Below, one piece after another: positions 2,638 through 29,935 of a DNA stretch of 31,053 bases. The DNA lies in the IMG/VR virus record IMGVR_UViG_3300034523_000188, positions 1-31,053 of that record, one strand, 5' to 3'. How positions within the stretch are numbered: position 1 is the stretch's first letter; every line of letters begins with the position of its first letter. A model generated the notes under the pieces. That model was given only the letters and a program-made list of their open reading frames with translations, was not told the DNA's origin and did not search any database. This DNA comes from a virus. Position numbers and translations under genes: made by a program.

Positions 2638-5328
2638 ATGAGCGCACGAATCTCCCCCGAGCAGTTCGACCGGATCTACCTGGACGAGGTGATCCCCGAG
2701 CTGCAGTACGACCCTGAGCTGGGTTTCCAGCCAAAGGATGAGAGCCAGGAGTACTTCAACAAGGGCGCGTGCCCGGGCTGTGGCGAGCGCACGGTCTACA
2801 TCAGCAAGCTCAAGCCCTACCAGCTCAAGTGCAATCGCCTGAACCAGTGCGGCTACGAAGAGAAGACCCGTGATCGATACCGCCACCTGTTCGAGAACCT
2901 GAGCGACCGCTTCCCCTCGACGCCAGAGAACCCCAACGCGACTGCCGATGCCTACCTGCAGCGTAGTCGTGGCTTCGATATCGCTCGGATTTCCGGTTGG
3001 TACGACCAAGAGCGGCGCCTGATGGCCGATGGCTCGTATGCAGCGACCGTTCGGTTCCCGCTGTGCGACGGTTACTGGGAACGCATCATCGATGCGGCCG
3101 CTGTAGCCGCCAACAAAGGTGACAAGGCAGGCATCCGCAAAGGGATGAAATACAAGGGCCAAGGCTGGGAGCCCAAAGGCCAGGCCTACGAGAAGGACGA
3201 CCAGGTCTTCGTCGTGGAGGGCATCTTCCACGCAATCGCTCTGTGGCTCGCTGGGTACAAGGCGATCGCCGCCATCAGTTGCAACAACTTCCCCTGGCAG
3301 ATCATCGAGGCAAACCAGGGCAAGGGCATACGTTGGGTAATTGCCCTGGATGACGATCCGGCAGGTCATGAGGTAATCCCTAAGTATCGGGATCGCTTGG
3401 TCAAAATGAAGGAATTCACCCAGGTGGCGCTCGCTGGCACACGGGACTGGGACGACGTTTATCGCGATGGCCAGCTGGATGATCTGTTCATCCAGGAAGC
3501 GCTCTACCAAGGTCAGTTGTTCTGTGCCAGCACGGCGATGAAGAAGGCCTACCTGCTGTATACCCGACGTCAGATTTCCTTCTTCCTGGTCGAGTTCGGA
3601 CGGTGCCTGTTCTCGGCCCGCGTGGCCACACCTGAGCTGCAGAAGGATCTGGACGAAATTCCCCGCAAGCCCGGCGAGGAGCCAACCGGATACTTCACGC
3701 AGTTTTCAAAGCACACCAAGCTCAACCAGGTGGCCAACTGCGTGCCGCGCTTCGAGTACCTGGAGCGCGACGCAATCAGCGGCGAACAGCGCTACTTCTT
3801 CCAGTTCGAGTTCCCGAATCGCCGGCTGAACTGCAAGGAGCCTTTGCCGCCCAGCGCAATCACCGAGCCACGCGGCTTCGCGAAGGCACTCCTAGAGCGA
3901 ACACCAGGTGGCATGTTCGAGGGCGGTGAAAAGGTGCTGGGGATGCTCAAGAGCGAATGGCTGCGCGACCCCAACGTGGTCCGCACATTGCCCTTCGTTG
4001 GCTACGACGAAGCGACCGGGGCCTACTGTTACCCAACCTTCGGCTTCTACAAAGGCAAGGCAATCCAGGTCAACGAACACGGCTTTCTGGACATCAAAGG
4101 CCACGGCCTCAAGACCTCGGCCCGTAGCTATCCAATGCACCGCGGGGAATCGTTCGATTCGTCCTGGTTCGCTGACTTCAAGTCTGTGTTCGGCCACAAC
4201 GGCCTGGCCAGCTTGGCCTGGTGGACCGGCTCGCTTTTCGCTGAGCAGATCCGCGCAGTGCAGCAAGGCTGGGCTTTTTTGGAGCTGACCGGAGCCGCCG
4301 GCGCAGGTAAGTCCACGCTGCTGCGCTTCCTCTGGCGGCTGGTGGGCCGCAAGAACGAAGAAGGCATCAAGCCCAGCGGTTCGGGTGCGTCGGCCATCGG
4401 CCTGCTGCGATCGCTGTCAGCGGTCAGCAACCTGCCTGTCGTACTGCTCGAGTCGGACAAAGAAACCACCGACGCAATGGGGCGGACCGTGATCGTCCAG
4501 TACAACTGGGACGAGATTAAGTCGCTGTTCGACCAGAACGCCAAGCTCCGTGTCACTGGCGTGAAGACGGGGAACAGCGACACGGATGCGCTGATTTTCC
4601 GTGGCTCGATCTGCATTTCGCAGAACACCATGGTGGAAGGCTCCGACGCGATCATCACCCGGATTGTCTACCTGCACATGACGTGCGACCACCACACCGA
4701 TGCTCTCAAGGTCGTGGCCGATCGGCTCAAGGCGATGCCGGTCGACCAACTGAGTGGCTACCTGCACGCGGTGCTTTGTCAGGAAAGCGCCTGGCTGGAG
4801 CGCTATTTCGGCGCGTACCCGGATTGCGAACGCCGCTTCATGGCACTGGGTGGAGTGAATCATGCGCGAATCATCCAGACCCACGCCCAGGTGCTCGCTG
4901 CCGCCAAAGCCACCCAGGCGCTCTTTCCAGGATGGTCCGATCGAGAGGTTGAAGCGCTGGCCAAACATCTGGAAGCCCGCGCCCTAGATCGTGAGCAAAC
5001 AAGGACAGCAGAAAACAAGACTGCCGCGCAGTTCTGGCAGGCCTATCACTACCTCAACGAACAGGTCGTGACGATTGAGGACGCTGACGGCCGTCGTCAA
5101 GAAACCCGCGAAACCCTGAACCACAGCTCGGACAAAGGCCTGATCGCCATCAACATCCAGCATTTCCAGTCAGCGTGTCGCGCCGCCGGCCTTGAAGCGC
5201 TGCCGACCGTTCTTCTGCAGAAAGGACTGAAACAGAGCCGTACCCACACCTTCCTCGAGGCGCGGAAATGCCACTCCCGCATCGAGCAGCGATCCCTGAA
5301 CTGCTGGATCTTCAAGAAGAACGGATGA
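2638..5328 (+). CDS. Bifunctional primase/helicase, phage replication protein
   Basis: An 896-aa replication protein with AAGGA before its start. An N-terminal zinc ribbon uses C45, C48, C65 and C71 (CPGC...C...C). A Toprim-type domain follows, with VEGIFHAIAL (E194) and ALDDDPAGH (D238-D240), the metal-binding acidic residues of primases. A P-loop ATPase domain begins at about residue 545, with Walker A GAAGAGKST at 552-560. A Walker B-like acidic patch (VVLLESDKE) follows about 50 residues later. The layout is that of zinc-binding, Toprim and helicase parts in one chain, so it can probably prime and unwind the phage DNA. It lies directly after cox, and the heptamer array downstream may be its origin. 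All motifs look intact. Confidence 0.9.
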   Translation: MSARISPEQFDRIYLDEVIPELQYDPELGFQPKDESQEYFNKGACPGCGERTVYISKLKPYQLKCNRLNQCGYEEKTRDRYRHLFENLSDRFPSTPENPNATADAYLQRSRGFDIARISGWYDQERRLMADGSYAATVRFPLCDGYWERIIDAAAVAANKGDKAGIRKGMKYKGQGWEPKGQAYEKDDQVFVVEGIFHAIALWLAGYKAIAAISCNNFPWQIIEANQGKGIRWVIALDDDPAGHEVIPKYRDRLVKMKEFTQVALAGTRDWDDVYRDGQLDDLFIQEALYQGQLFCASTAMKKAYLLYTRRQISFFLVEFGRCLFSARVATPELQKDLDEIPRKPGEEPTGYFTQFSKHTKLNQVANCVPRFEYLERDAISGEQRYFFQFEFPNRRLNCKEPLPPSAITEPRGFAKALLERTPGGMFEGGEKVLGMLKSEWLRDPNVVRTLPFVGYDEATGAYCYPTFGFYKGKAIQVNEHGFLDIKGHGLKTSARSYPMHRGESFDSSWFADFKSVFGHNGLASLAWWTGSLFAEQIRAVQQGWAFLELTGAAGAGKSTLLRFLWRLVGRKNEEGIKPSGSGASAIGLLRSLSAVSNLPVVLLESDKETTDAMGRTVIVQYNWDEIKSLFDQNAKLRVTGVKTGNSDTDALIFRGSICISQNTMVEGSDAIITRIVYLHMTCDHHTDALKVVADRLKAMPVDQLSGYLHAVLCQESAWLERYFGAYPDCERRFMALGGVNHARIIQTHAQVLAAAKATQALFPGWSDREVEALAKHLEARALDREQTRTAENKTAAQFWQAYHYLNEQVVTIEDADGRRQETRETLNHSSDKGLIAINIQHFQSACRAAGLEALPTVLLQKGLKQSRTHTFLEARKCHSRIEQRSLNCWIFKKNG

Positions 5329-5440
5329 CCCCGTCCGAGCGGGATGAGCTCTCCGGGTTAGGGGGGAGTCCGGCGGTTTAGAAATTTATGAGTAGTCCCC
5401 TAGAGCATCTGGAATATCTAGAAGGAAGAGGAATATATCA

Positions 5441-5686
5441 ATGAATACAGTCAGTTACGAGCCATCAGCAAAGCCCATACCACTGGAAGGCGCTGGAAGG
5501 TTTCGGACAGTCGATCCTTCCACTTCCTTCCACCAACCTTCCACTTTCAAGGCTTTTCCGCGAACCCGCTGTAGCCCAGGCGCCACGCGGCCTGCAGGCC
5601 AATCATGCAATGTAAACCTTCCACCTCCTTCCACCCCAGGTGGAAGGACAGAAAAAATCTTCAGCCCAGCAACCACGCGGGCTTGA
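5441..5686 (+). CDS. Possible small protein over the heptamer array (doubtful)
   Basis: An 81-codon frame with AAGAGGA 8 nt before its ATG. The product is Pro/Thr/Ser-rich and shows no recognisable fold, and the middle (PSTSFHQPSTF) is simply the translation of CCTTCCAC repeats. The repeats run on both strands without respect for reading frame, which argues that the DNA, not the protein, is selected. It is kept only because of the good ribosome-binding site and the otherwise unusual 478-bp gap. Confidence 0.25.
   Translation: MNTVSYEPSAKPIPLEGAGRFRTVDPSTSFHQPSTFKAFPRTRCSPGATRPAGQSCNVNLPPPSTPGGRTEKIFSPATTRA
5484..5647. repeat. Array of eight CCTTCCA heptamers, candidate origin/iterons
   Basis: CCTTCCA occurs at 5516, 5526, 5537, 5617 and 5627 on the plus strand. 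Its complement TGGAAGG occurs at 5484, 5494 and 5641. Neighbouring copies are 10 or 11 bp apart, one helical turn. The last two form a perfect inverted repeat, 9-bp arms with a 3-bp centre, at 5627-5647. The array lies in the 5329-5806 gap directly after the primase gene, where a P2-family phage could hold its origin. Phased heptamers on both strands suggest a cooperative protein-binding array. Whether that is an origin, a Cox site or a regulator site is inference. Confidence 0.7.
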
Positions 5687-5690
5687 GGCC
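5573..5690. repeat. Imperfect 28-bp direct repeat in the origin-like gap
   Basis: 5573-5600 and 5663-5690 match at 22 of 28 positions and share AGCCCAG, CCACGCGG and AGGCC blocks 90 bp apart. The second group of heptamers lies between the two copies. This suggests that the non-coding region grew by duplication or has a modular binding-site layout. No function can be assigned. Confidence 0.45.
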
Positions 5691-5757
5691 CCACAGTCTG
5701 GACTCCTTCCGGATATTCCAGACGTGCAAGGGGCATACGCGCCGCAAAGGATTTTAG

Positions 5758-6169: not shown

Positions 6170-6447
6170 TCGTGCGCTACCTGGTCAACGGCACCCCGAG
6201 CGAACTGCCACTGCCCTCGATCTACCTGGAGAGAGCACGACCGGAGGACCTGGCAGAACTGGTGGCCAGCGACTTTTGGCGACAACGGCAGGACGTAATG
6301 CCGCCCGTCCTAAGCCTGATCCACCTGGTGGAGGTGGACGGCTCGGATCTCGGGGTTTTCGAAGTGCGTAGCGAGCTGCGCCCCGTGTTCACCGCCGCTG
6401 CACTTTCCACTCAACGGAACCAACTCAGAAGGAAACCGAAATGCTGA
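6166..6447 (+). CDS. Hypothetical phage protein upstream of csrA
   Basis: A 93-aa protein. The start at 6166 was chosen because its ATGA overlaps the upstream stop and GGAGG lies upstream; a longer reading from 6142 would begin inside the previous gene. The N-terminus [22 protein letters not shown] reads like a short beta-rich domain. A run of Arg/Lys closes the protein. No known motif is recognised. Its last bases overlap the csrA start (ATGCTGA), so csrA is translationally coupled to it. Confidence 0.65.
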
Positions 6448-6635
6448 TTCTGACCCGCCGTATTGGCGAAACCATCCGCATCGATGACGACATTCAAGTC
6501 ACGGTATTGGGCGTCAAGGGCAACCAGGTGCGCATTGGCGTAACCGCGCCAGACGCCGTCGAGGTGCACCGCCAGGAGGTCTACGAGCGCATCTATCGCG
6601 AGAGCGCGCAGCTCGATCCAGCCCTGCAGGGCTAG
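6441..6635 (+). CDS. csrA: Phage-encoded CsrA/RsmA translational regulator
   Basis: A 64-aa member of the CsrA family, which binds GGA-loop RNAs, usually over ribosome-binding sites, to block or alter translation. The start [14 protein letters not shown] is canonical. RNA-contact residues are present: L4, R6, R7, and V42-H43-R44 near the C-terminal strand. AAGGA precedes the ATG. The protein is about the size of chromosomal RsmA (about 61-62 aa) but differs in the middle ([28 protein letters not shown]). It lies inside an early operon, so it may act on phage mRNAs or compete with host RsmA for sRNAs. That target choice is inference. Confidence 0.93.
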
Positions 6636-29092: not shown

Positions 29093-29935
29093 CTATATAC
29101 GATGAAAATCCAGTGCAAAAAGTCGCTCACTAACTTCCGCTTTAAAGACCTCCACATGTGACAGCTGCTGCGACTTTGAAACCAGATCCAAAATTTTATC
29201 TTGGTTGGTTTTTGTCATCCTGGCCCCGAGCCTAATCGAGCGCAGACATTCCCAAGGAAACTCAAACAGATGAATTGGCACATCGAGACCAGGAATCTCT
29301 TTAACTTCATCTGCATCCTGCAATGGCCTGAGAATCCTCCACTCCTGCTCGTACTCCCAGATACGCCCTTTAGAAATAAACACATCATAAGAAGGGCCAT
29401 CTATCAAAATTGTTTCAGGCCTAACGTCAGTATATTTAACCTTCCGAATGTGACGTAATTCATCTTTGTCCGATCTGCGCTGATGAAAATGCGGATCGCT
29501 CGTATCGAAGCCTAACACAAAACCGGCATGACTTTCCGCATAGTGCGCCCACATCAACAAGTTATCATATTTTTCAGTCAGGCATAGCATACCGACCTTT
29601 TCAAATTGCTCAGCAAGCGTTGTTTGCACTTGAGAACTTCGAAGATTAACTTGCTCTGTAACATATTTCAAAGGCATTACGCTAAACAGCAGCTTAAACA
29701 ATTCATCTTCAGAAACCGCTCGACCGACTTTTGCGGAAAACTCGGCCTTCAATGACTGCATTTGCGGAGCTGCGACCTCAATGTATTTTTTTATAATTTC
29801 ACTTTCTGGCGCAATAGCAGAAATATGTGGCTTTAGTTCGAAAGGATCATTCAATACCGAAGGAGGAGAATAGCGCAATTTACCATTTTCAAGAACTTGC
29901 GCCAAACTAGGAGAAAAGTACTTGTACAGTATCAT
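29093..29935 (-). CDS. DUF2971 family protein, AT-rich cargo gene
   Basis: A 280-aa soluble protein with AGAGG 5 nt before its start. The DUF2971 pattern is plain: YKYFSP (4-9), NDPFE (29-33), CLTEKYDNLLMWAHYAESHAGFVLGFD (118-144), and KGRIWEYEQEWRIL (189-202), with W129, H131, Y132, E196, E198 and R200 among the most conserved. No biochemical function is established to my knowledge. The gene is on the strand opposite the late genes, is visibly AT-rich, and follows a membrane-protein gene by 44 bp in one operon. Such cargo at the end of a prophage is often a defence or fitness gene, here by inference. Confidence 0.88.
   Translation of the reverse strand: MILYKYFSPSLAQVLENGKLRYSPPSVLNDPFELKPHISAIAPESEIIKKYIEVAAPQMQSLKAEFSAKVGRAVSEDELFKLLFSVMPLKYVTEQVNLRSSQVQTTLAEQFEKVGMLCLTEKYDNLLMWAHYAESHAGFVLGFDTSDPHFHQRRSDKDELRHIRKVKYTDVRPETILIDGPSYDVFISKGRIWEYEQEWRILRPLQDADEVKEIPGLDVPIHLFEFPWECLRSIRLGARMTKTNQDKILDLVSKSQQLSHVEVFKAEVSERLFALDFHRI

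Follow-up and report, generated by a model that had tools for sequence, protein, structure and literature searches.

RESULTS

A heptamer array downstream of the primase-helicase gene

The window, i.e. the whole stretch of 31 053 nt analyzed here, belongs to a P2-like Pseudomonas prophage, as indicated by its portal, scaffold, capsid, sheath and tape-measure proteins and by a Cox-like protein. On the forward strand it carries a gene for a primase-helicase of 896 aa (positions 2638–5328; PHROG 1139 DNA primase with an E-value of 1e-223; Pfam Toprim), which we propose as an origin initiator. The cargo end of the prophage encodes a 280-aa protein of PHROG 1762, a family annotated without a function (29093–29935).

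The sequence-only reading of this DNA had described eight copies of the heptamer CCTTCCA between positions 5484 and 5647. All eight were found as exact matches, five on the forward strand (starting at 5516, 5526, 5537, 5617 and 5627) and three on the reverse strand (starting at 5484, 5494 and 5641), and just three more exact copies occur outside the array in the whole 31 kb window. When the 478-bp intergenic stretch was shuffled 2000 times with dinucleotides preserved, the maximum for any heptamer was four copies per 164 bp. Shuffles of the whole window (n = 40) likewise yielded no heptamer with more than four copies per 164 bp, and a second heptamer cluster with more than four copies was not found elsewhere in the window.

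Further details of the arrangement were only partly as described before. Spacings of 10–11 bp apply within the sub-clusters (10, 10, 11 and 10 bp), but the other gaps measure 22, 80 and 14 bp. The terminal dyad is indeed perfect, but longer than the 9 bp given for it, with arms of 10 bp (5626–5635 and 5639–5648). Finally, the range from 5484 to 5647 represents the core of a larger element extending from about 5409 to 5721. Within the core, a left cluster of two reverse iterons (5484–5490 and 5494–5500) and three forward iterons (5516–5522, 5526–5532 and 5537–5543) is followed by a right cluster of two forward iterons (5617–5623 and 5627–5633) and a reverse one (5641–5647), which closes the dyad with the copy at 5627–5633; all of these are exact copies and match slots of the layout described below. 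Degenerate copies form an outer left pair on the reverse strand (5410–5416 and 5419–5425, in slots 84− and 93−) and an outer right pair on the forward strand (CCTTCCG at 5705–5711 and TATTCCA at 5714–5720). Both pairs fall in slots that are filled in relatives, often by intact copies.

Two additional kinds of elements accompany the iterons. An A+T-rich stretch (about 5409–5468) covers the outer left pair and continues beyond it; we regard this stretch as a candidate unwinding element. It is part of the conserved layout beside the left cluster: at +80 to +140 after the primase stop codon the A+T content in the family is 0.62–0.78, compared to a background of 0.42 in these loci. Moreover, two imperfect dyads of 29 bp with the consensus CTGnAGCCC-N11-GGnCTnCAG, located 90 bp from each other, were observed between the clusters (dyad 1, 5569–5597) and after them (dyad 2, 5659–5687), and both occur in phages of all iteron classes. 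They look like RNA hairpins, but this assignment was rejected, as the arms show no covariation across 62 distinct copies (paired fraction of 0.73 compared to 0.74 with shuffled arms for dyad 1, and 0.72 compared to 0.72 for dyad 2). For this reason we treat them as conserved sequence dyads and not as stems; an element that is bound by a protein or read as sequence is more likely. An Rfam search for RNA structure gave no match. The GC skew of the window has no turning point at the array and is uninformative as evidence for an origin.

The layout is kept in relatives while the repeat unit changes

Relatives were gathered by primase searches and comprise phages (including PaBSM-2607-JFK, phi3, BIBS67 and phita81A/2), IMG/VR contigs and bacterial genomes; in IMG/VR, relatives number in the hundreds. 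In phage phi3 (L007), a reverse transcriptase gene (434–2119) adjoins the integrase gene. In close relatives the array is located just after the primase stop codon, starting about 80 bp past it as in the window, and the layout is that of the window while the sequence of the unit differs. We found five units among the close relatives, namely CCTTCCA, CATTCCAG, CATACCAG, TGTTCCGG (the commonest) and TGTTACTA. Several distant primases (35–40% identity) are associated with further units, e.g. TGTTCCCA, ATTACCTT, TTACATTT and TTTCTAAT.

The consensus layout consists of 15 slots, given here in bp after the primase stop codon with the strand as sign. Slots 1–8 are located at 78−, 87−, 149+, 163−, 173−, 183−, 195+ and 205+, and slots 9–15 at 216+, 237−, 295+, 305+, 319−, 382+ and 391+. 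Neighbor spacings of 9, 10 and 11 bp, which are the steps inside the clusters, dominate in the arrays of the relatives. The idea of a functional array implies that spacing is retained in relatives, and spacing turned out to be their best conserved property. Compared to most members of its own class, the window has its inner left copies 22 bp apart and not 12 bp; as the gap is longer by about 10 bp, which is one helical turn, the copies stay in phase.

Three loci (L085, L119 and L123) show a mixture of two unit types, CATTCCA and TAGTTCA, in apparently comparable slots of the first 430 bp past the primase stop codon; these are possibly arrays in transition between specificities. Several distant relatives (L095, L096, L097 and L101) have inverted CGGAAA/TTTCCG elements flanking the outer iteron pairs. 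In the Citexvirus primases (Dobby group, about 31% identity) the wing is longer and the downstream array is absent. By scanning whole genomes we found an array of eight AATTACC copies far from the primase in Dobby (L188, 445–633) and in D14A (L189, 137–325), and the array region of Dobby (360–633) also has an A+T-rich stretch of this kind together with the same 29-bp dyad. From this distance we can infer that the element can separate from the gene and that adjacency is not required.

Structural models of the primase-helicase

The primase-helicase comprises putative zinc-binding cysteines, a TOPRIM primase, an AAA+ helicase and a C-terminal winged helix. Its full-length model has a pLDDT of 82.8. 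Using VIA-align, about residues 310–896 of this model (helicase and C-terminus) matched SCCmec Cch (5DGK, residues 315–896 of the model) with a Z-score of 21.4 and SaPIBov1 Rep (8TCH) with a Z-score of 20.1, and residues 92–298 matched DnaG-type TOPRIM domains. Searching PDB sequences with a profile of the primase found nothing, Pfam DUF927 gave no match at an E-value of 0.1, and P4-alpha did not match in the sequence searches. The similarity to Cch is structural only.

The C-terminal domain (aa 784–896, encoded by positions 4987–5325 on the forward strand) is the proposed iteron reader, on the basis of its winged-helix model and of the covariation described below. In isolation it was modeled as a winged helix with a pLDDT of 86.8. 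Its winged-helix matches in VIA-align were weak, the best being TcpK (Z-score of 5.2), and the P4 origin-binding domain was absent from the fold matches listed, which are weak (Z-scores of about 5). Foldseek returned no significant match for the isolated domain. According to this model, residue 879 (residue 96 in the numbering of the domain model) would end the first wing strand, and residue 884 (101) would lie just before the second wing strand. The codon of residue 879, a histidine in the window, is located at 5272–5274 on the forward strand.

The iteron sequence covaries with the C-terminus of the primase

We compared iteron distance with protein distance segment by segment in 41 dereplicated primases, with the rest of the protein controlled (partial Mantel). 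Among these primases only the last 46 residues clearly follow the iteron sequence: iteron distance tracks residues 851–896 with a partial r of 0.60 (p = 0.002, the lowest value that 500 permutations allow) and the sub-segment 861–885 with a partial r of 0.64, while the other segments range from −0.26 to 0.19. Residue 879 ranked first among 661 variable columns (partial r of 0.90) and residue 884 second (0.86). With an NMI of 0.95, residue 879 comes near to a code for the iteron class. Histidine corresponds to CCTTCC, tyrosine to CATTCC, tryptophan to CATACC and arginine to TGTTCC, and the iteron core fits this rule in 82 of 83 distinct loci. As the exploratory loci (65 of 66 fit) had served to derive the rule, only the 17 held-out loci, which came later from new viral scans and 423 Pseudomonas genomes, represent a true test; all 17 fit, 12 of them belonging to the common arginine class. 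The sole exception is L028, which combines R879 with a TTACTA unit; its differences from the near-identical neighbors L024 and L025 are mostly found toward the C-terminal end. Residue 879 alone is therefore not the full code. Sequence comparison shows the array and its conservation, the layout of the copies and the covariation with the C-terminal domain, and this covariation strongly supports that iteron recognition is set by this domain, with linkage as a partial confounder.

DISCUSSION

The array as a candidate replication origin

We consider it very likely that replication of this P2-like Pseudomonas prophage starts at the array and that the TOPRIM primase-helicase binds it via a C-terminal winged helix. 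Cooperative binding of the phased array by one protein had been suggested from the sequence of the window, with four candidates for that protein. The comparison of relatives strongly supports this idea, with an origin initiator, namely the primase itself, as the binding protein, while Cox and the ribbon-helix-helix (RHH) protein were dropped. In the proposed mechanism the C-terminal domain would read an iteron of 7–8 bp, with a specificity given mainly by residue 879, which the model places in the wing, and helped by residue 884. The copies, which share one helical face and are arranged in opposed clusters, would seat several subunits so that one or more AAA+ rings could assemble on the DNA. 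The DNA would then melt at the A+T-rich stretch that flanks the left cluster and the helicase would load, the fused TOPRIM domain would prime, and host polymerase III would extend. For binding, melting, loading and origin activity this scheme follows SaPI Rep and P4 alpha.

In SaPI origins the iterons are located just downstream of rep and are read by the C-terminal domain of Rep (PMC7581432). The system of the window resembles them in its AAA+ helicase with the initiator fold of SaPIBov1 Rep and Cch, in the position of the iterons directly downstream of the gene for this proposed initiator and in the A+T-rich region beside them. However, the SaPI initiator is a stand-alone helicase whereas the protein of the window has a TOPRIM primase fused N-terminally, and the element belongs to a P2-like prophage of Gram-negative hosts. 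Its family also differs in having about 15 slots and two 29-bp dyads, and in a unit sequence that switches often. SCCmec Cch is the best structural match of the primase-helicase. Cch2 is a helicase of a different family from Cch. Its C-terminal domain binds direct repeats that lie downstream of the Cch2 gene (PMC7581432); in contrast to the system described here, Cch2 uses only three 5-nt iterons and a separate, non-TOPRIM priming complex.

P4 alpha acts at repeats and unites a TOPRIM primase, a helicase and a winged-helix repeat-binding domain in one protein (PMC4234260). The protein of the window likewise joins TOPRIM primase, helicase and C-terminal winged helix in one chain, but we detected no sequence relationship between the two. 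The type I iteron of P4 is GGTGAACA, whereas the units found here are CCTTCCA, TGTTCCGG and others. TcpK of plasmid pCW3 reads tandem 9-nt repeats mainly by a beta-wing in the major groove (PMC6137059). TcpK and RFX1 are winged-helix proteins that insert the wing into the major groove, a mode that the proposed reader may share; TcpK, however, is a small relaxosome accessory protein acting at oriT, and the match is weak and one of fold similarity only. The window phage shares with P2 a Cox-type gene and P2-type portal, scaffold and capsid genes. The gpA protein of P2 nicks an origin that lies inside gene A. No gene for a gpA-like nickase was found among the long window ORFs scanned, which were structural, integrase or unknown, and the primase-helicase with its downstream array stands in place of gpA. 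By analogy, the best reading is that the array would function as an iteron origin served by an initiator helicase that loads itself, similar in kind to SaPI Rep but with a primase fused to it as in P4 alpha.

Alternative explanations

Binding of the array by the primase-helicase might serve regulation, copy control or incompatibility, with the start of replication at another place. Iteron arrays of plasmids can serve copy control, and the covariation implicates the C-terminal domain only and not melting. We nevertheless regard this explanation as unlikely, because the A+T-rich stretch belongs to the conserved layout, downstream iterons serve as origin in the structural relatives (PMC7581432) and the window has no other heptamer cluster with more than four copies.

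Linkage is the main caveat to the primase as the reader of the iterons. The array adjoins the region that codes for the C-terminus, and the two diverge as one block, so that part of the correlation is due to linkage. This block is seen in two close pairs with different units, L015/L020 and L024/L028: in both pairs most of the DNA differences fall in the final 200–300 bp of the primase gene together with the array, and an identity of >90% resumes on either side. Domain and array therefore behave as a cassette. L015 and L020 are nearly identical, differing at 11 positions in 880 aa; 8 of these positions fall in the last 43 residues (binomial 5e-9), and their unit changes from CATTCCAG to CATACCAG. 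However, spacer and iteron bases are equally diverged in this pair (Fisher p = 0.45), which alone can therefore not separate linkage from recognition, and we downgraded the argument from this single pair. With such sharp boundaries and such even divergence it could be supposed that the cassette is exchanged as a whole and that the reader of the iterons is an unrelated protein of the host or the phage. We consider this very improbable for several reasons. The left edge of the cassette falls within the primase gene, where it coincides with the C-terminal domain rather than with the end of the gene. In a tree calculated without the C-terminus, the iteron class changes at least six times, and CCTTCC and CATTCC each occur in separate clades with the matching residue 879. 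A recurrence of residue and unit is also seen in L089, whose primase is only 39% identical and has R879 together with the unit TGTTCCCA. Finally, Dobby and D14A have a similar array without adjacency to the primase.

It is also hardly probable that the array is an operator for another phage regulator (Cox, the C repressors, the RHH protein or CsrA), although these genes are located nearby and Cox and C repressors were found in essentially all relatives (33 of 36 related loci). Cox was rejected as conserved reader since its similarity does not track the iteron class: it is nearly identical in L025 and L028, which have different iterons, and very different in L015 and L019, which share the same one. 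The RHH protein, present in just 13 of the 36 loci, was rejected for that reason. CsrA/RsmA, which would read GGA on RNA, was rejected on account of copies on both strands, of iteron classes without GGA and of the absence of its gene from the relatives. The CsrA-like gene of the window lies at 6441–6635 and was found in none of the 36 related loci.

An origin of the array as a by-product of coding sequence, with repeats encoding a low-complexity protein (81-aa ORF at 5441–5686, forward strand), can practically be dismissed: the frame is open in several relatives of classes A and B and annotated as a gene in PaBSM-2607-JFK (L002), but differences between relatives are spread evenly over the codon positions (e.g. 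30/30/31) whereas the 3′ end of the primase gene is strongly third-position biased (16/6/68), the window copy of the ORF is frame-shifted, and the class C arrays checked have no such start codon. This pattern, without any sign of coding selection, bears out the earlier statement that coding does not explain the array, and we judge the ORF not to be a functional protein-coding gene. The deposited gene of L002 (WKV23991.1, 6808–7128) lies at the position of the array; no constraint on coding is seen among its homologues, and it is probably a false annotation.

Origin specificity in P2-like phages

Within a single, widespread family of P2-like phages, the covariation of domain and iteron may reflect a natural, fast-evolving origin-recognition code, in which the wing (residue 879, tuned by 884 and its neighbors) dictates the iteron and the trading of cassettes between phages repeatedly switches specificity; for this we see about as much reason to believe as to doubt. 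Repeated switching of origin specificity would possibly avoid cross-talk or parasitism among co-resident prophages and satellites. In the open-access literature we found no paper on such an origin in P2-like Pseudomonas phages. Our analysis assigns a probable replication origin and its initiator to a large and mostly unannotated set of P2-like phages, in which rolling circle replication of the P2 type might otherwise be assumed, and adds a primase-fused branch to the SaPI Rep/Cch kind of initiator. The natural pairs of domain and iteron, one of which differs by 11 residues overall, make a long-standing question testable, namely how origin specificity may evolve without loss of function.
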